A stretch of DNA of 31,569 nt from a virus: the IMG/VR virus record IMGVR_UViG_3300020411_001720, positions 1 to 31,569 of that record; one strand, written 5' to 3'. Below, in pieces: positions 3,378-31,569 of this stretch; position 1 is the first letter of the stretch; the number at the start of each line of letters is the position of its first letter. The notes beneath the pieces were generated by a model, which did no database searches, was not told the DNA's origin, and saw only the letters and a list, made by a program, of their open reading frames with translations. The position numbers were made by a program, and so were the translations under genes.

Positions 3378-5903
3378 ATGGCACTAACACAAGTCACATC
3401 TGCTGGTCTTAAAGACGGTGAGATCGTTAATGCCGATTTACATTCAGCAGCTTCGGTTGCATTATCGAAACTCGCAAGTACTGGAGCTTTAGGTTCTGCT
3501 GTTACAGCTACAACCCAGTCTGCATCTGACGACTCCACCAAATTAGCAACGACAGCTTTTGTTCAAGCTGCTGTTACCAGTTTGATTGATGGCGCACCTG
3601 GATCGTTAAATACATTAAATGAACTTGCAGCCGCAATAAATGATGATAGTTCTTATGCCACTACTTTAACGACTGCACTTGCTACGAAACTGCCGTTGGC
3701 TGGAGGCACTTTAACTGGGACGTTAAATGTCGATGGTGGTTCCAGTGGGATGATTGACTTTGGAGATACTGGAAGTGCTTTTGGTCGTTTATATGCAGAC
3801 TCAACAGGTACTTTTATTGGATCTAAAACACAACATTATTTATGGTTAAGAACTAATAATGTTCAACGAATAAAAGTATCAGATACCAGTGCTGCAACAT
3901 CAATTGGTGGAGCATTTGCTTTTAATGCAATGCTTACGACCCAAGGTGATATATCTGGTGGTTTGTTAATGCTTAAGGCATCGGAAAATACTAATAGGTT
4001 CTTTGTTTCAGGTAATGATACTTCTGGTTGTGAGGTTAATTTATATGATGATTCAGGTGGACAAAGAGGAATAGTAGGAGTTTCTAGTAATGAATTTTTT
4101 CTAAAAGCACCTAACAATAGTGCGCCACTAACATTTTACACTCATAACGGTAGCAGTATTGGTGAAAGGTTTCGCATCGCATCAGATGGAAAGGTATATT
4201 TTGGTGATTTTGCTAGTGTAGGATCTAAAGCATATATCTTAAAAGAAGTAAGCGGTGATTATAAATTTAATATTTTTGCATCTTCATCTACTACTACTAA
4301 TAGAATAATAACAATTAATAGTAGAAGTGATGTTGAAGCAATGCGTATTGACGCAGATGGTAGATTATTATATGGAACTACTTCTTCAACAAGAGAAACA
4401 TCTTTAGTTTTAGTAGGTAATAGTAATTCTCATACAACAAATCCAGGCGTAATTGATTTATTTGTGGGTAATACTCCTAGTAATCTAGGATCTATGGGAC
4501 AAATTTGCTTTGGTACTCAAAATGTAGTAGGAGCAAGAATTGATGGAAGAGCAGATCAAGATTGGACTCTTGGTTCTGCTAGAGGAACTCATATAAGATT
4601 TCTTACTGTTGAAAATGGTTCAACATCTCTTACAGAAAGACTTCGCATCCATTCTACAGGACAAGTTGAATTTAAGGTTCCAGATTCTGTTGCAACTTTA
4701 AAATTAACACCTAGTGGAACAAATGCTCCTGCCACAATTGATTTCAATACGCCTGGAGTAGGTTCTGCAGTATTTAAAGTTCAAGGTACAGAAAAACTTC
4801 GCATTACATCTGGTGGGCAGATTAAACATTCTCTAGGTCACTCTTCAGGTAGTTCAGCCAATGAGGATACGAGTTGGTACGGTGATGACGCAAATGAATA
4901 TACTCTTGAACATCGTGATTTTAACGAGATATATGCACTAAAAACGGTAAACGCTAATAACTACGCTTCCTATGTTTATAGAAGGGAGACAATGACAAGT
5001 TGGTGCGATATTGAATTTGAATTAATGGGTGGGACTCCTTCTGGTTATAGACATGTTGGTTTTGCAATTAATGGTGATGGTAGTGATACAAATGGTAATT
5101 TTGATCGTTTAGTTTTTAGAAGTCATGCTAGTAATTCTTCTCTTAATCAAGTCAGATTAGACACATCTTCTGGAGAAGGATTTGGGACTGTTGGTACAGG
5201 TGTTCCTCAGTGGTTTGACGGTACATGGAGGCATATTCTTCTTCAAATTAGAGGTGATGAATATGGAATTACTGTTGATGGTGTAAGGAAATTTTCTTTT
5301 AACTCTTCTTATGCCGCAGCTAGAGCTTCTGGATATTTTGGTTTTACAATTTACGAAGCAAGTAATGATAATAATCCTTGGTTAAAACTTAAAAATTTCA
5401 AAATAAGAAATTACAGTAAAGAATGGGCTTCACCACAACTTTCAAGTGCGGGTAACAATGATGCAATTCAAGTTATGCACGATACGAATAATAAATGGGG
5501 GAAAATGATTGGAAAGAGAATACATAATACGAGTAGTGCTAGCTCTAAAAATGTTGATATTTTAAATATTGACTCTTGGCAAAGTCCTAATTCTCGAATA
5601 ATTGTCAAAGTAAATGTAATGGCTATAAGTCCTGTTGCTGAAATTGGATTTTTTGCTTACGGATCAGCCTATTGTCGAAGAGGTGGTAGCAATACAACTG
5701 CTCAAAGTCATAGTGTCAATACTATGACCTTGGAGAATAGGTTTGGGAACAGTAGTGCCTATGGCAGTTTGGACTGGAACGGAATGGTTCTACGGTATCA
5801 AACCCCAGACGTTGCTTATTTAGATATGCACGTTGATGTTGAATATCATGGTTATGATGGTGTTAATGTTACTTTCCCGACTAAATATATTGTGGCTAGT
5901 TAA
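3378..5903 (+). CDS. Large tail fibre protein with LamG-like C-terminus
   Basis: An 841-residue fibre. Residues 1-110 form the classic fibre N-terminal block (MALTQVTSAGLKDGEI, then TKLATTAFVQAA, then LNTLNELAAAINDDSSYATTL and LPLAGGTLTGTL). The centre has at least four copies of an 'ERLRI-x-S-x-G-x-V' type motif (nt about 4160-4820). Around residues 500-680 the sequence (GTWRHILLQIRGDEYGITVDG) resembles a concanavalin/LamG-type beta-sandwich that could bind glycans. It lacks the LLDDYEEG motif of the other two fibres. The gap to the next gene is 62 nt and shows no convincing terminator. Confidence 0.88.
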   Translation: MALTQVTSAGLKDGEIVNADLHSAASVALSKLASTGALGSAVTATTQSASDDSTKLATTAFVQAAVTSLIDGAPGSLNTLNELAAAINDDSSYATTLTTALATKLPLAGGTLTGTLNVDGGSSGMIDFGDTGSAFGRLYADSTGTFIGSKTQHYLWLRTNNVQRIKVSDTSAATSIGGAFAFNAMLTTQGDISGGLLMLKASENTNRFFVSGNDTSGCEVNLYDDSGGQRGIVGVSSNEFFLKAPNNSAPLTFYTHNGSSIGERFRIASDGKVYFGDFASVGSKAYILKEVSGDYKFNIFASSSTTTNRIITINSRSDVEAMRIDADGRLLYGTTSSTRETSLVLVGNSNSHTTNPGVIDLFVGNTPSNLGSMGQICFGTQNVVGARIDGRADQDWTLGSARGTHIRFLTVENGSTSLTERLRIHSTGQVEFKVPDSVATLKLTPSGTNAPATIDFNTPGVGSAVFKVQGTEKLRITSGGQIKHSLGHSSGSSANEDTSWYGDDANEYTLEHRDFNEIYALKTVNANNYASYVYRRETMTSWCDIEFELMGGTPSGYRHVGFAINGDGSDTNGNFDRLVFRSHASNSSLNQVRLDTSSGEGFGTVGTGVPQWFDGTWRHILLQIRGDEYGITVDGVRKFSFNSSYAAARASGYFGFTIYEASNDNNPWLKLKNFKIRNYSKEWASPQLSSAGNNDAIQVMHDTNNKWGKMIGKRIHNTSSASSKNVDILNIDSWQSPNSRIIVKVNVMAISPVAEIGFFAYGSAYCRRGGSNTTAQSHSVNTMTLENRFGNSSAYGSLDWNGMVLRYQTPDVAYLDMHVDVEYHGYDGVNVTFPTKYIVAS

Positions 5904-8811: not shown

Positions 8812-9068
8812 GTATAACTTACTCCGTTAATCGTTTGGGACGTTTGCTCTGGAGGCGGCGAAAGAGTTGTGCCATCAATAGACAAATTCGTTCCATTGAT
8901 CGTATAAGTATGCCCAGTGTTATAGTCAGTAGAGACAATAGATTCAGTAACATTTTGAGTAGTGCGAGTGACTGCCGACATGGTTCCACTTGAAAAGTTG
9001 GGAACCACTGGTACGGCTAAAGTCTGAGGTATATTTAATAATAATAATAATGGTAAATACCTCTTCAT
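8640..9068 (-). CDS. Secreted cyanophage protein
   Basis: A 142-residue protein with a clear Sec signal (MKRYLPLLLLLNIPQTLA, cleavage likely near residue 18). A Thr/Ser/Asn-rich mature part follows that reads as beta strands, ending TTSVFSQ. It sits 4 nt after the previous gene in a leftward group of small exported proteins. The ending and overall pattern match a family I associate with T4-like cyanophages, of unknown function. Its 3' end overlaps the apparent signal peptide of the next gene. Confidence 0.72.
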   Translation of the reverse strand: MKRYLPLLLLLNIPQTLAVPVVPNFSSGTMSAVTRTTQNVTESIVSTDYNTGHTYTINGTNLSIDGTTLSPPPEQTSQTINGVSYTWTGADLTQKPNVTIANPGEAFQYAESYIGPGLSNMTTINRTTVLESTTETTSVFSQ

Positions 9069-13832: not shown

Positions 13833-14731
13833 TGCCGAACCATCCCCTCCGCACCGCGCCGAAACCAACCACGCCTGCCTCAACTCTACAATCCCCGCCG
13901 TAACGCTACCCGCCATGCCAATAGCCGTGCCTGCTAAACCCCGCCTGACCCTGCAACTCCATCCACACCGCGCCCAACCATGCCTGCTAAACCCCGCCTG
14001 AACTCAACTCTCCGCGCCTAACCACACCTGCAAAACCTCGCCAGTCCTAGCCTTTGTTGCCCCGTTTCTCCATTGACTGCCACTCCTCCCTAGCCTGCCG
14101 CATCTGACCTCGACTCTCCCTTCCCTAACTTGCTCCTCGCTACCTTGACGCGCCTCGCCTGCCGACCCTTCCACTCCCTACCAAGCCTACCGCTTCGCTC
14201 CGTAACTCGCCCTAACGCTCCGTGCCTGCCCAACCTCGTCTTTCCATAGCGCACCAAAACGCACCCATCCTTGCCTGCCTTTCCAATCCTGACCAGAACC
14301 CGCCTTCCTCTCCGTGTCATTCCTTGCCTGCCGAACCGACCACAACCGACCACACCATCCCCTCCAAACCCCTCCCTTCCAAGCCTGCAAAACCGTGCCT
14401 TTGTGTTCCTTTTCGGGCCATGCCCTAACGCGCCTCGCCTGCTAAACCTCACCATTCCTGACCGCATCATTCCTGACCTCGCCTGCCTCAACTTTCCGCA
14501 ACATGCCTTTACCATCCCCTCCAAGACTCTCCCCTCCAGTTCGCATCATGCCTAGCCTGCCATCCATGCCGTCCTCGACTCTCCTGACCACTCGATTCCT
14601 CGCCTGCCTCACGCTCCTCAACACACCGCATCACACGATACCCCACCCCCCTGAACTCGCCATGCCTGCCATCCATACCAGATCGGTCCGACCAGTACCC
14701 GCCCAACCAGTCCAAACCTGCAAAACCGTGC
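13833..14731. repeat. ~900-bp noncoding C-rich array with 5-bp CC spacing
   Basis: This tract fills most of the gap 13786-14774. The + strand is C-rich and G-poor; one 60-base row (14341-14400) has 31 C and 5 G, against AT-rich surroundings. CC dinucleotides recur about every 5 bp: in the six 10-base blocks of 14221-14280, C occupies position 5 of every block and position 10 of five. Words such as GCCTGC, ACGCGCCTCGCCTGC and ACCATCCCCTCC recur several times but there is no fixed long unit. The - strand is therefore G-rich with frequent GG, able to form G-quadruplexes if transcribed. Open frames through it give only R/G-rich low-complexity sequence and are treated as noncoding. Confidence 0.85.
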
Positions 14732-14732
14732 C

Positions 14733-14767
14733 AAAAAAAAAGAAGGTCAAGGAAAATCCCTGACCTT
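14733..14767 (-). terminator. Leftward intrinsic terminator before the C-rich array
   Basis: AAGGTCA (14743-14749) pairs with TGACCTT (14761-14767), with two further inner G-C pairs. On the - strand nine T residues follow (complement of 14733-14741). It ends the transcript of the gene at 14775-15428, so the array is not simply read through from upstream. Confidence 0.82.
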
Positions 14768-16521: not shown

Positions 16522-16713
16522 TTAAGAATTAGTAGTTTGAGTGTTGGCTTTTTCGTAATGCTCTACATCAGCCATCTTGTAGCGCACTTTGCCTCCAATT
16601 TTGATGAATGGTGGCCCCTGTCCTTGTCCTCTCCACCGTATTAAACTTTTACGGTGGAGTTTCCATCGTTCTGCAAGTTGAACATCAGTTAGAAATTCAG
16701 AATCCGAATCCAT
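16522..16713 (-). CDS. AlpA/excisionase-type HTH DNA-binding protein
   Basis: A 63-residue protein with LTDVQLAERWKLHRKSLIRW, then GQGPPFIKIGGKVRYKMADVEHY. This is the small winged-helix HTH_17 (MerR/AlpA/Xis-like) fold: one recognition helix followed by the G-G-K-V-R-Y wing. It could act as excisionase or transcriptional regulator; no integrase is in the window, so a regulatory role is as likely. It overlaps the recT gene by 17 nt. Confidence 0.82.
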   Translation of the reverse strand: MDSDSEFLTDVQLAERWKLHRKSLIRWRGQGQGPPFIKIGGKVRYKMADVEHYEKANTQTTNS

Positions 16714-20303: not shown

Positions 20304-20753
20304 ATGAGCAACTTAGAAACAAAACTCCAGCAAGAGATAAGACTCGCTCTGGGGCAAATGCCAGATCTCCGAATATTTCGTAACCAAGTTGGACAACTTC
20401 CAGATCTTAGAACAGGTAGACCCGTACAATTTGGCTTGGCAAAAGGTTCTTCTGACCTTATTGGTTTTAAAACTATTGAAATCACTGAAGAGCATCTAGG
20501 CAAAAAACTTGCAGTCTTCACAAGTATCGAAGTGAAAACTGCTAAGGGCAAACTCTCTCCTATGCAGCATAATTGGCTCTCCTGTGTAAAACAGGCTGGC
20601 GGTATCACAGGTGTTGCTCGTAGCGTTCAAGACGCTATCCAAATAATTTCTAAACCTATCTCTTATCTCAATGAGCGAATTAAAACTGGATCGAAATCAA
20701 TGGAGAACATTCACACAGCTACTAAACAAAACAAAAGATCAAGTTCGTCTTAG
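20304..20753 (+). CDS. VRR-NUC nuclease
   Basis: A 149-residue protein with a PD-(D/E)XK-type VRR-NUC domain, associated in phages with helicases and possibly acting on branched DNA. Seen: Glu6, RNQVG (26-30), GLAKGSSDLIG with Asp51 (44-54), IEVKTAKG with Glu76 and Lys78, and SPMQ with Gln88. The domain ends near residue 115; the remaining S/K/N-rich tail is encoded by DNA that also encodes the start of the primase in another frame (83-nt overlap), so the tail is probably not functional. Confidence 0.85.
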   Translation: MSNLETKLQQEIRLALGQMPDLRIFRNQVGQLPDLRTGRPVQFGLAKGSSDLIGFKTIEITEEHLGKKLAVFTSIEVKTAKGKLSPMQHNWLSCVKQAGGITGVARSVQDAIQIISKPISYLNERIKTGSKSMENIHTATKQNKRSSSS

Positions 20754-22950
20754 AGCTTTTTTCCCTAAAGGACATCCTCTTAAAGATCAAGATCGTGGTA
20801 AAAAATCTCATGCTGATCTCGCATGGATTACTAAATGCCAAGAAGATGGTCGTGGTGTTTATGTCGTCGTAAACAATGGTGGTGATACAGATGCTTCAAT
20901 TACCGATTGCAAAGCCTTTTTCTGTGAATGGGATGATCGTGAAAAATATTGGCAAATTAATGCTTGGCAAGAATTAGGTCTTCCAAAACCTTCTCTCCAG
21001 ATTGATACAGGGGGTAAATCTATACACAATTATTGGATACTTAAAAAATCTATAGACCCAAAAACTTGGAAGCCTATACAAGAAAGATTATTAGACCACG
21101 CAGATGCAGATAGAGCATTAAAAAATCCTTCCAGAGTAATGAGATTACCTGGTACTCATCACATGAATACCGATGGTTCACCAGGTGAATTAACAACAAT
21201 TATTGATAACTCAGGAACAACTTATACTCTCAAAGATATTGAATCTTGTTTACCTACTCCCAAAGTCGCAGAACAAATAAAACGTAGTTCTGAATACAAA
21301 GATTATAGAAAAGAAAGTATAGAAGTTGTTGAAGAAGCTTTACGTTGCATCCCTTCAAGAACGCCTGGTAGTAATACATATCACATGTATAGAAATATTC
21401 TCTGGGGATTAATAAAAGCTTGTGAAGATGCAGGTAGAGACAGTGATTATGCTGTTTCTTTAATGGAATCTCATTCCCCAAGTTGGAAAGGACTTGATCA
21501 AATTGCAAATTCTGGCGGTAAAGATATTACAGCAGGTACTTTTTGGTATTGGGCTATAAAAAATGGCTATGTCCCTCGCAGAAATGTAACAGTTTTACCA
21601 CCTAACTGGGACTTCTTTAATACACAAAATAATAACGATGATAATGATGATGATAACGATGATAATGGCAATAATAACAATGAAGAAGGGATACAAAGAG
21701 GTGGCGAACGATTACAAAGACTTGAAGCACATGATTTACTACGTGAACTAAGAAGTTATCCAAAAAAAGATAAAGAAGGGGGAGCTTTTCGATATAACAT
21801 TTTTACCCAACAAATTGAATTTGGAGGCCAAGTTTGTCAAGGTAAAGCATCACCTGAAAGATTTTATCTAGCACTCGCTCTTCAAGGTTTCAAAATTTCC
21901 AAAGACTTAGCCTTCGACTGCCTCGTTCAAACTGCAAGAGAAAATGAATACGATCCTGTTCGTGAATATTTAGAACGATGTCGAGACAAAGAACCACCAA
22001 TGTCAATCGACAGACTCGCAAGTACTTACCTAAGACCTGAAGACGCTGCTTTACCAGAAGCAACAATCTACGATCAGATGATTAAATGCACCATGATCGC
22101 TGCTGTCGCAAGAGTTTTTGAGCCAGGTTGTAAATTTGATAATGCTTGTATTCTAATGGGACCGCAGGGCGCGAGAAAGAGTTCATGGTGGAAAGCTATG
22201 GGAGGTGATTTCTTCTCCGATGCACTTAAAGATATTTCTACAAAGGACTCGCTAATGATTTTGCACCGTTCTTGGATTATGGAAATGTCCGAGATAGATC
22301 AAGTCCATAGTAAAAAACACAGTGGAGAAATAAAAGCTTTCCTATCTCAATCAACCGATATGTTTAGAGTCCCGTATGGAAAAGTTACCGAAGATTTTCC
22401 TCGTCGTGGAATCATTGTTGGATCAACTAACAGACATGATGGTTTCCTCTTAGATGAAACTGGATCTCGTAGATTCTGGGTTATAGAAACAACTTGTACG
22501 ATAGAAAATCAAATAAACGTAGAAGGTCTATTAAAGGAAATTGATTCGCTTTGGGCAGCCGCAGTTCATTGTTATGAGAATGATGAACCATATCAACTTC
22601 CAATAGAAACGGAATTAGAAATTAATGAAAATAATGAAAAATATTTAATAGATAATCCGTGGAAAAATATTATCTCCGAGTATGTAAATTCACCATCGAA
22701 TTTTGATCGGGAATTTACAACTAATGGAATATTAACTGACGTAATTGAAAAACCATTAGAACGACAGACTCGCTATGACCAAATGCAAGTTGCAACCATA
22801 TTAAAGGACTTGGGACTTACAAAAAAACGCAGAGGAGCAAAAAATAGTCGCAAATGGGTCTACATTCGAGAATCGCATGGTGTCCTAACCTCGGCGCAAG
22901 ACTCGCTTAGGTTGGACGAGGTTGCCACCCACTCATACGAAGAGATTTGA
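20671..22950 (+). CDS. Primase (RepB-type) fused to VapE-like helicase
   Basis: A 759-residue replication protein. The N-terminal ~230 residues resemble RepB-type primases: VRLRAFFPKG (25-34), FFCEWDD (83-89) with catalytic-type acids, DTGGKSIHNYW (112-122) and SRVMRLPGTHH (154-164). An N/D-rich linker (about 318-342) follows. The C-terminal part is a VapE/VirE-type helicase with Walker A GPQGARKS (497-504), WIMEMSEID (about 535-543) and the SRRFWVI arginine-finger region (about 600-606). Such fusions open and prime phage or plasmid origins and then need a polymerase from elsewhere. The 83-nt overlap with the nuclease gene is unusually long. Confidence 0.9.
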   Translation: MSELKLDRNQWRTFTQLLNKTKDQVRLRAFFPKGHPLKDQDRGKKSHADLAWITKCQEDGRGVYVVVNNGGDTDASITDCKAFFCEWDDREKYWQINAWQELGLPKPSLQIDTGGKSIHNYWILKKSIDPKTWKPIQERLLDHADADRALKNPSRVMRLPGTHHMNTDGSPGELTTIIDNSGTTYTLKDIESCLPTPKVAEQIKRSSEYKDYRKESIEVVEEALRCIPSRTPGSNTYHMYRNILWGLIKACEDAGRDSDYAVSLMESHSPSWKGLDQIANSGGKDITAGTFWYWAIKNGYVPRRNVTVLPPNWDFFNTQNNNDDNDDDNDDNGNNNNEEGIQRGGERLQRLEAHDLLRELRSYPKKDKEGGAFRYNIFTQQIEFGGQVCQGKASPERFYLALALQGFKISKDLAFDCLVQTARENEYDPVREYLERCRDKEPPMSIDRLASTYLRPEDAALPEATIYDQMIKCTMIAAVARVFEPGCKFDNACILMGPQGARKSSWWKAMGGDFFSDALKDISTKDSLMILHRSWIMEMSEIDQVHSKKHSGEIKAFLSQSTDMFRVPYGKVTEDFPRRGIIVGSTNRHDGFLLDETGSRRFWVIETTCTIENQINVEGLLKEIDSLWAAAVHCYENDEPYQLPIETELEINENNEKYLIDNPWKNIISEYVNSPSNFDREFTTNGILTDVIEKPLERQTRYDQMQVATILKDLGLTKKRRGAKNSRKWVYIRESHGVLTSAQDSLRLDEVATHSYEEI

Positions 22951-28330: not shown

Positions 28331-28456
28331 GACTCGCTCATGCGTTTAGAGACTCGCTATCACGAAAAGACCCGCTAAGACCCGCTAAGACCCGCTATCA
28401 CTCAGAGACTCAGAGACTCAGAGACTCGGAGACTCGCTAGTGCGCGTACACATACA
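28331..28456. repeat. Tandem GAGACTC / AGACCCGCTA repeats plus R1 copy 2
   Basis: Directly after the stop at 28329, AAGACCCGCTA-type units occur three times in a row (about 28367-28398). AGAGACTC/GGAGACTC 8-bp units follow four times (about 28404-28434). The right part (28415-28456) is the second copy of R1. The sequence is noncoding and forms the left edge of the 498-bp gene-free region 28330-28827. Confidence 0.75.
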
Positions 28457-28540: not shown

Positions 28541-28748
28541 TGTCGAATGGGGGTAGACGTATTGAATGTCAATGTCGAGTAGGAGTTGTCGTTTTTATTG
28601 TCGAGTAGTAGTTGACGTATTGATCGACGAGTAGGCGTTGTCGTATTTGTTATCGAGTAGGGGTTGACGTATTGATTATCGAGTAGGGGTTGTCGTATTG
28701 ATTAACGAGTAGACGTTGACGTTTTTAAAAGTAGTTGACGTATTTGAT
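28541..28748. repeat. 26-bp iteron-like direct repeats, alternating A/T variants
   Basis: Copies of TCGAGTAGGNGTTG(A/T)CGTATTGA-like sequence recur; CGAG cores at 28602, 28628, 28654, 28680 and 28706 are exactly 26 bp apart, with earlier copies at about 28543 and 28575 and a shortened last copy at 28731-28744. The base in GTTG-N-CG alternates: A, T, A, T, A, T, A, then A in the shortened copy. There are no unique spacers, so it is not a CRISPR array. An origin with iterons or a multi-site operator for the gene at 28828 is likely. Confidence 0.85.
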
Positions 28749-29664: not shown

Positions 29665-30708
29665 ATGACTTCTTTTTATCAAACACCACGCCTTGACGGT
29701 CAGTACGCAAGACAAGGCACACGCGCGCCTTATACTCGCGCCTATGAATCGGACACCCTACGCGCTAGAAAATCAGTTGAATCTGTTCTTGGTACTGATA
29801 TTGCACCTGATCAAAAAAATGTAAGGGATATTTTAACTAGCGCGGGCGCGTGGTTCGATACTGCAAAAACAGACATACACTTTGATACTAAAATCAATGG
29901 TCTGCAGCGCACGGCATCACATAAGGGAATTATTAGAACTGATACAGGCGACCTTTTAGGACTACACGGGACAGGATACCAAGACGTAAAAATACAGGAC
30001 ATCGAATATATCCTTGAAACATTAAGCGATAAAATGACCATTTCAAACGTGCTTTTAATGAATAATGGCGCGCGCTTGTATGTAACTGCGACAGTTGACG
30101 AAAATGAAGTGACGACAGGCGACACTATACGCCGTCAACTTCACTTGTATAACTCACATGACGGTTCAACCGCGCTAGGGTGCTTTTTTTCTGACCGTCG
30201 CATGGTATGTATGAACGAGTTGGGGATCTTTACAGGATCAACGGCAAGCGCGGCAGTTAGTCAAGGTCGTGGCTTGAAAATGAGACATACACGCAATGTG
30301 CGCAACTTTGCACATAGCCTAGTTAAAAGGATAGACATAGAGAATGAGCGTTTTGAGCAGTCAATACAGGACTATAAGTTAATGGCTAATACAGTATTCA
30401 AAAAAGGCGATGCTGAAAAAATATTGCTTAAGGTTTACGGCGATAAAATCAAGCAAGGACAGGACTATACAGACCTTAAAGAGTACGCGCCTATACAAAG
30501 GTTAGTAAATACAGGGACAGGTGTTGAACTATGCAAAGGCGCGACAATGTGGCGTTTTTTCCAGGGATTGACAGAATATGAGACACACTTCTCAGGAACT
30601 GCCAAAAAGAATAGACAGGAAATAAAATTTAACTCAAAATATCATGGCGTGACTAAGACGCGTATTAATAAGGCTAGAGAATCAATTCTTGAGTTATGCG
30701 CAGCATGA
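29665..30708 (+). CDS. DUF932 phage/plasmid-like protein
   Basis: A 347-residue DUF932 protein (also called phage/plasmid-like protein TIGR03299), found on phages and plasmids; function not established. Family features: GLHGTGYQDVKIQDIEYIL near residues 93-111, ARLYVTATVDENEV, the conserved GDTIRRQLHLYNSHDGSTAL, RRMVCMNELG, and a helical C-terminus. Length is normal. GCG and CGC codons are common, in contrast to the left part of the window. Leader TTTATCTTTTATTTAAA before the start. Confidence 0.82.
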   Translation: MTSFYQTPRLDGQYARQGTRAPYTRAYESDTLRARKSVESVLGTDIAPDQKNVRDILTSAGAWFDTAKTDIHFDTKINGLQRTASHKGIIRTDTGDLLGLHGTGYQDVKIQDIEYILETLSDKMTISNVLLMNNGARLYVTATVDENEVTTGDTIRRQLHLYNSHDGSTALGCFFSDRRMVCMNELGIFTGSTASAAVSQGRGLKMRHTRNVRNFAHSLVKRIDIENERFEQSIQDYKLMANTVFKKGDAEKILLKVYGDKIKQGQDYTDLKEYAPIQRLVNTGTGVELCKGATMWRFFQGLTEYETHFSGTAKKNRQEIKFNSKYHGVTKTRINKARESILELCAA

Positions 30709-30839
30709 AATACTTTATTATTTATCTAGCGTTCTGTCTTGCCTTGCTTGTCAGTCTTAACCAGTCATTGACTAAAGCAACCCAAAACGACTGCCAATAT
30801 TTCAAGATCGCGGCAGCATGTAGGCAGCTAAACAAGTAA
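30705..30839 (+). CDS. 44-residue secreted small protein
   Basis: Reads MKYFIIYLAFCLALLVSLNQ, then SLTKATQNDCQYFKIAAACR. The N-terminus is a signal peptide or membrane anchor; two Cys remain after it. It resembles short cyanophage/cyanobacterial exported proteins with D-C-x-x-x-K-I-A-x-x-C. It is coupled to the DUF932 gene by an ATGA overlap and followed at once by a terminator. Confidence 0.6.
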   Translation: MKYFIIYLAFCLALLVSLNQSLTKATQNDCQYFKIAAACRQLNK

Positions 30840-30843
30840 ACAC

Positions 30844-30870
30844 AAGACCCTACAAGCTAGGGTCTTTTTT
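30844..30870 (+). terminator. Intrinsic terminator T1
   Basis: AAGACCCTA (30844-30852), loop CAAGC, TAGGGTCTT (30858-30866), then further T. Perfect 9-bp stem; ends the DUF932 transcript. Confidence 0.88.
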
Positions 30871-30892
30871 CCTTTATCCTTTATTTAATCCC

Positions 30893-31093
30893 ATGAACTA
30901 CACAACACAACAAGAACAAGCACTAGACAAGCTAAGGACTAAGTGGGCAATAGTTGGCAAGCCTTACCCTTTTTTGGGTGGTAATGGTTGCTTAATGGTA
31001 GAAGTAGAAGGCGCGATAGGTGAGAGTGTGGGCAGTGCTTACACTACGTGCTATACGCTAGGCATTGAGCGCGACGGGTACGTGCATAGTTAG
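30893..31093 (+). CDS. 66-residue hypothetical protein between twin terminators
   Basis: Reads MNYTTQQEQALDKLRTKWAI, then GGNGCLMVEVEGAIGESVGS; a helix followed by beta strands. The leader CTTTATCCTTTATTTAATCC precedes the start. It stands alone between two nearly identical terminators, like a moron gene with its own expression. I recall similar short cyanophage ORFs but no function. Confidence 0.65.
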   Translation: MNYTTQQEQALDKLRTKWAIVGKPYPFLGGNGCLMVEVEGAIGESVGSAYTTCYTLGIERDGYVHS

Positions 31094-31109
31094 GACAATA
31101 TAGAAAAAT

Positions 31110-31136
31110 AAGACCCTACAAACTAGGGTCTTTTTT
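31110..31136 (+). terminator. Intrinsic terminator T2
   Basis: AAGACCCTA, loop CAAAC, TAGGGTCTT, then TTTT (31124-31136). It differs from T1 at one loop base, 266 bp away. Confidence 0.88.
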
Positions 31137-31230
31137 AATGCTCTTTTTTAATTCTCCAGGAGAAACAAGACAGAAAAAATAAAAATATATGGCCTTTATA
31201 TGGCCCTCAGACAGGCCAAACTAAAACGTG

Positions 31231-31460
31231 CTATGTAGTACAGTGCGGTAAATTGCGGCTCTCTGAGGCGATTTGCGACGTTAGGTATTAATACGTAGCA
31301 ATTTGAGGTAGCTAATATTAAATTATCGACTCGTTCGCTGCGCTGTATTGCGTGACAATGAGCGACAGAACGCGGCAGCGCGTGGCAATACGTCACAGCC
31401 TGCGAGCTATTGGAGTAAATCGCGAAAATTAGCACGATTTGGTAGGCATGTGACAGTTGA
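31231..31460. repeat. Helically phased 10-bp degenerate array
   Basis: Two blocks of noncoding DNA with 10-bp periodicity. In 31231-31310, all eight consecutive 10-bp units have G at position 5, six have T at position 4 and six have G at position 8 (for example CAGTGCGGTA, AATTGCGGCT, ATTTGAGGTA). In 31341-31460, all twelve consecutive units have G at position 2 (for example CGTGACAATG, AGCGACAGAA, CGCGGCAGCG). The phase slips between blocks. The gap 31137-31569 holds this array, the paired site at 31475-31517 and no supported gene. Confidence 0.75.
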
Positions 31461-31474
31461 GAGATTGGCACAAT

Positions 31475-31517
31475 AGGTATAAATACTTAGAAAAAATGAC
31501 TAGGTATTTATACTTAG
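31475..31517. promoter_or_regulatory. Paired GTAT/ATAC operator-like site
   Basis: AGGTATAAATACTTAG (31475-31490) and AGGTATTTATACTTAG (31502-31517) are direct repeats 27 bp apart, with cores that are each other's reverse complement. They also form an imperfect 12-bp inverted repeat around a 9-nt spacer. The TACT/GTAT halves recall the AATACT palindromes further left. Confidence 0.55.
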
Positions 31518-31569
31518 TTGAAAAAAATTTAGGTTCTTTTTCGCGAAAACTCAGAGGGTTATTTCGTGC

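Follow-up and report, generated by a model that had tools for sequence, protein, structure and literature searches.

Phased 10-bp sites beside the cos end of a marine phage genome are a probable docking region for a control protein

The right end of the viral record IMGVR_UViG_3300020411_001720 (the window; all 31,569 nucleotides were analysed) carries genuine, degenerate 10-bp sites in tandem, arranged in two blocks around an AT-rich core and bounded by inverted 12-mers. This array lies upstream of cosQ, between the terminator of the early operon and the terminase genes, the latter located from the related contig L120. In this marine phage, a control protein probably docks on the array. We tentatively favor an iteron array for a putative phage DNA-binding protein that would control the cos/late-operon junction, a reading to which we give somewhat less than an even chance.

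The period of 10 bp was measured in several ways. A sequence-only reading of this DNA had pointed to a G in every one of eight, and then twelve, consecutive ten-base steps, and direct counts and shuffles bear this out: G is found at 31235+10k in 8/8 units and at 31342+10k in 12/12 units. Across all steps of 2-40, none of 200 dinucleotide shuffles of the whole window reached a run of 12 Gs; in local shuffles, a step-10 run of 12 occurred in 0 of 5000 and a run of 8 in 22 of 5000. The same reading had proposed a Fourier or autocorrelation analysis, and in it period 10 is indeed stronger than in shuffled sequence. G power at period 10 was above that of 1000 of 1000 shuffles for each of the two arrays alone, and a phase-tolerant statistic (lags 10, 20 and 30) gave z = 8.0 for the right-end array, a value reached in 0 of 2000 shuffles. 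The joined region (31231-31460) is unremarkable at exactly period 10.0, where its G power was matched by 122 of 1000 shuffles, because the two halves are out of phase with each other (37 bp separate 31305 from 31342). In a coarser scan of the whole window with the phase-tolerant statistic, the array windows were at the top of 784 windows of 240 bp. One-turn spacing under selection, suggested earlier as selection on the DNA helix, is supported, while the copying mechanism with a 5/10-bp register proposed beside it is not.

The features of the right end, and of a second array in the same genome, are collected in Table 1. The unit of the right-end array is a degenerate 10-mer, G-N-R-R-Y-A-N4. The spacing had been described as free of sequence conservation, with all other positions varying freely; we find instead a consensus, in which positions 3 and 4 favor R, position 5 favors Y and position 6 favors A. 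Imperfect copies of the unit continue outside the limits first drawn for the two arrays (31231-31310 and 31341-31460). The inverted 12-mer flanks the array in all three phages compared (the window's, L003 and L138). That nothing here is coding also held up: the one ORF that covers the array (31196-31471, minus strand, 91 aa) has no counterpart of at least 50 aa in L003 and no match in Pfam or PHROGs, and a coding role was ruled out since this ORF is not kept in L003.

Table 1. Features of the right end and of the C-rich locus, in window coordinates
Feature	Coordinates	Strand	Basis
VIPR vrRNA array (the C-rich array), GG every ~5 nt on the minus strand	13840..14735	-	periodicity, neighbour gene, homologous loci
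vipr gene, RAMP (Cas7-like) protein, 217 aa	14775..15428	-	profile vs PDB 36pp; Foldseek 6xn3
Intrinsic terminator for the early (rightward) operon, to the left of array 1	31110..31132	+	terminator scan: 9-pair stem, then T run
Left boundary arm CTAAAACGTGCT	31221..31232	+	identical in 3/3 phages (alignment)
Array 1, eight 10-bp units, each G-first	31235..31314	+	position count, periodicity, unit list
AT-rich core TTTGAGGTAGCTAATATTAAA, among the best-conserved blocks	31302..31322	.	three-way alignment
Array 2, twelve 10-bp units, each G-first	31342..31461	+	position count, periodicity, unit list
Right boundary arm AGCACGATTTGG, matching the left arm imperfectly in reverse complement	31431..31442	+	unit list
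AT-rich inverted repeat, 17-nt arms	31474..31516	.	window's phage only; absent from relatives in alignment
cosQ-like AGGTTCT	31531..31537	+	GGGTCCT in L003, L150, L169 and lambda
Cohesive-end sequence GGTTATTTCGTGC at the genome's physical right end	31557..31569	+	identity with first 13 bases of L142

The window ends at a physical genome end of the lambda type. Its last bases, GGTTATTTCGTGC, are the first 13 bases of the left-end contig L142 (13/13), which continues CGC, and the L003 contig ends at the same point as the window. With the small terminase subunit (TerS) of L120 as query we obtained 23 contigs, 16 of which begin at one homologous point, 154-172 bases ahead of the TerS start codon. 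Thus, ~100-320 bp separate the array from the right end at a cos of the lambda type. Among the other TerS contigs, a 17th (L144) begins ~10 bp further in, L141, L146 and L160 begin further in, L138 and L150 read through, and L153 starts with what we take to be adapter sequence. The 13 bases common to both ends would fit filled-in 5' cohesive ends. A GGGTCCT-type cosQ stands ~20 bp before the cohesive end, exact in L003, L150 and L169, as in lambda, and with one or two changes in the window and in L138 (AGGTACT). The genes that adjoin such a cos, TerS and a gpA-type TerL, are seen in L120, and cosQ precedes cosN. The excerpted account in PMC4669245 describes cosQ as a conserved 7-bp signal for termination and places three TerS sites in cosB. 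TGTAAC/GTTACA repeats are found between cosN and TerS (TGTAAG/CTTACA in a group with a changed TerS HTH), so that cosN separates the array from the likely TerS sites.

Comparison with homologous phage ends, another check put forward from the sequence, yielded two relatives with a 10-bp array. L003 was found via a DUF932 neighbor gene (29665-30708), and its aligned nucleotide pieces are 70-91% identical. L120, found by a pattern scan for four GYGRCA-type units, is the start of a 51-kb contig, G001, and L138 is the same contig. Period 10 is evident in the window (z 8.0), L003 (z 7.4) and L138 (z 5.3), three phages that amount effectively to two lineages. In an alignment made without a unit model, the phase-G columns of the window are G in 19/20 cases in L003 and 18/20 in L138, and its other G columns are G in 25/39 and 26/38. 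A unit conservation of 15/15 was also counted, but with units picked by a G-rewarding score; 19/20 and 18/20 are the unbiased figures. L003 and L138 have ~64 bp of extra mid-array units compared to the window; the unit is kept while unit number varies among the three.

G001 has most of the replication and lysis-side genes of the window in common and is without Vipr, DUF932 and two genes close to the right end (66 aa and 189 aa), and the array is present. The window contig stops before the terminase genes; in the sister contig L120 the array is directly upstream of TerS (phrog_57, E=1.3e-21), HNH and a gpA-type TerL (GpA_ATPase, E=9.6e-87). A tie between the array and the DUF932 gene was ruled out, as G001 carries the one without the other. 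L150, with a near-identical TerS, has no 10-bp period at this site (z 1.9, 79 of 2000 shuffles). The matches listed in an array scan with CTGAGGCGATTTGCGAC were only L003's contig, L120 and L161, the last of which we take for chance. In the sister phage, L168 has a period-10 peak within a long ORF (5030-5260). In the same place before the terminase genes, other repeats are found in L150 (2600-2810, 33-bp), L169 (85-290, 34-bp) and S-LBS1 (34237-34641, CCTAACC motifs).

Further repeats were noted in these genomes. The window has 5.7 copies of a 26-bp iteron (TCGAGTAGGAGTTGACGTATTGATTA) at 28575-28726, also seen in L003 and with two scattered matches in G001, as a possible origin or operator, and short arrays of AAGACCCGCT (x3) and ACTCAGAG (x4.5) at 28367-28435; L003 has a short array of GAGACTCGCT units at 8850-8990. 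The window also encodes a VapE-type primase (20671-22950) related to those of cyanophages S-LBS1 (56%) and S-2L (31%), and a helix-turn-helix protein of 63 aa (HTH_17, 16522-16713) whose gene is also present in G001.

The right-end array had been thought to be possibly one kind of element with the C-rich array, which does not agree with our results. By sequence and structural model, the C-rich array is a VIPR guide-RNA array beside a Vipr RAMP protein; VIPR systems of this type are described in the excerpt of PMC13142463. The 217-aa protein matched SUSP1 Vipr weakly as a single sequence (E=0.34), and as an 18-member profile it matched SUSP1 Vipr (PDB 36pp) with E=1.8e-6. The best Foldseek match of its model (pLDDT 78.8) is a Csm chain, 6xn3 (E=9.6e-5, TM ~0.4), consistent with a Csm/Cas7-like fold. 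The VIPR array is 3' of the vipr gene in 40/40 loci in viral contigs, many of them near-identical, and homologous loci have period-5/10 arrays, with near-perfect GGC-NN units in the relatives inspected. Along the array in the window (~900 nt), GCAGG marks recur at intervals of 20-74 nt (44-67 nt in most cases), which may reflect staggered vrRNAs. Five guides matched against ~1.49 Mb of loci did no better than shuffled guides in a search for VIPR targets.

The right-end array resembles VIPR vrRNA arrays, as they are presented in the excerpt of PMC13142463, in its phased short units with a conserved G and variable bases, in a genome that has a VIPR locus, and the RGY motifs every 10 nt in array 1 would suit a guide RNA of this type. 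It differs in its 10-bp rather than 5-nt step, lies on the other strand far from vipr, adjoins cos, and shows no GGY/NN period of 5 nt (z at lag 5 of -0.1 and -0.3). This missing signal and the presence of the array in the Vipr-less G001 show that the two arrays are different elements. They largely refute a VIPR-guide role for the right-end array, which we regard as exceedingly improbable and counted as ruled out.

A search for 10-bp-phased tracts elsewhere, likewise suggested at the outset, was productive. Many unrelated viral contigs (L050-L137) have perfect or near-perfect 10-bp GYGRCA-N4 arrays of up to 11 units. The pattern gave 88 loci, from which 13 near-duplicates, judged by eye, were dropped to leave 75 records; the examination of array units took in 87 loci, with L137 outside. 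A TerL match was found in 35 records, 29 of them at least 10 kb (L120 excluded), and in 14 of these 29 the array was at most 3.5 kb from TerL, compared to 7.6 expected under uniform placement (Monte Carlo P=0.0056, a value that is optimistic because the related loci L061/L073/L136 were not collapsed). In L109 and L089 the arrays adjoin late-activator-like genes (phrog_36), and at other loci they adjoin TerS or TerL (for example, L094 with a Sf6-type TerS and L126 with Terminase_2). These arrays were also considered as transposon ends, presumably like those of CAST/Tn402, an idea set aside once the terminase neighbors appeared. A literature search on 10-bp direct repeats found no paper.

Its position, with the early terminator on one side and the late operon on the other, together with a free number of units and an association with cos that persists when neighboring genes change, fits a protein-binding iteron array. 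The G-first sites would be the major contacts for a phage-encoded DNA-binding protein, which might load one protomer per helical turn and cover the array in a nucleoprotein complex. Most likely, this protein would serve to control the junction of the early genes and the cos/terminase end, and first of all, by analogy with Alt/Ltr activators, to switch on late (terminase and structural) transcription across the joined cos. In support, the array remains with cos as its neighbors change (before TerS in G001, without DUF932 and Vipr), and its direct repeats, about one turn apart, stand upstream of the terminase genes, as in late-activator operators. The 10-bp period and G columns kept across the three phages, and the GYGRCA arrays of unrelated viruses that cluster near TerL and in L109 and L089 adjoin phrog_36 genes, also speak for this reading. 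Against this reading, cos lies between the array and TerS, a scan of both strands of 30700-31569 gave no sigma-70-like promoter, the arrays known for such activators consist of about four repeats compared to 20 or more here, and a phrog_36-type activator gene was found in 0/4 records searched, which may be fragments. The lack of a 10-bp period in L150, whose TerS HTH is near-identical, also counts against it, as does a direct comparison limited to three phages.

Other roles have to be weighed against this. The array might be an accessory site for packaging, at which terminase or a helper binds (or the DNA wraps around a TerS ring) to aid cos cutting or the end of packaging. Its distance of 100-320 bp from cosN, and the enrichment of GYGRCA arrays near TerL, some beside TerS genes such as those of L094 and L126, argue for this. 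However, L150 and L149 have the same TerS HTH and the same TGTAAC/GTTACA sites between cosN and TerS, L150 without any array, and cosN lies between the array and these lambda-like TerS sites. The array is therefore not an obligate terminase site, and an obligate cosB-type site for the TerS HTH was ruled out; a packaging role overall seems unlikely, although it retains an appreciable share of the probability. A related thought is that phages with this type of cos keep lineage-specific phased repeats before cosQ, 10-bp in the window, L003 and L138 and with periods of 33 bp in L150 and 34 bp in L169, and that these repeats, coated by protein, act to brake or hold the packaging motor on its approach to the terminal cos, such that function is kept and sequence is free; we consider this a long shot.

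Direct repeats around a conserved AT-rich core with inverted boundary arms also have the suggestive anatomy of a replication origin or partition site, with iterons onto which an initiator or a ParR-like protein would load, and SPP1 origins are similarly built of direct repeats and an AT-rich element, in the excerpt of PMC6316719. The second iteron set of the window (26 bp x 5.7) competes for the origin role, and a ParA-type ATPase was found in 0/4 records searched; we consider an origin or partition site rather improbable. An integrase attP was ruled out, with Phage_integrase in 0/4 records searched. Finally, the array could be transcribed (+ strand) into a structured phage RNA, a long rod with short hairpins. 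The consensus fold has 73 pairs with 96.3% of cells paired and five double changes compared to 1.7 in shuffles (3/500), and the + strand of the window folds with z -3.8. On the other side, shuffles of 10-column blocks keep most of the stability (4/100 as low or lower, z -1.7) and those of 20-column blocks keep more (21/100), the L003 + strand reaches just z -1.3, and there is no Rfam match at gathering score; we think such an RNA quite improbable.

The results place this phased array at a defined location, next to cos at the right physical end of a phage genome, and set it apart from the VIPR guide array of the same genome. The GYGRCA 10-bp arrays near terminase genes of unrelated viruses suggest a wider, searchable class. 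If the array controls late transcription or the termination of packaging, it would be a cis element not seen in lambda, at least in the last 120 bases of its right end.

This cos is like that of lambda in the GGGTCCT cosQ ~20 bp before the cohesive end, the 5'-type cohesive ends on both contig ends, the repeat sites between cosN and TerS and the gpA-type TerL, but its cohesive end is 13 nt compared to 12, and those last 120 bases of lambda have none of this array. SPP1 oriL and oriR, as the excerpt of PMC6316719 presents them, are alike in their direct repeats and AT-rich element, whereas here there is no known initiator and the array sits beside cos. With respect to the TP901-1 (Alt) and phi13 (Ltr) operators, we rely on the excerpt of PMC13123087: Alt recognizes a set of four imperfect direct repeats that spans -76 to -32, four repeats in ~44 bp and thus near one per helical turn, and phi13 has four repeats before the terS/terL promoter. 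These differ from the array in having only four repeats, and here no Alt/RinA/Ltr-like gene was found and cos intervenes before TerS; they share with it imperfect direct repeats ahead of a terminase/structural operon. We conclude that this is a genuine iteron array, conserved and adjacent to cos, and a probable variant on a known kind of control element.
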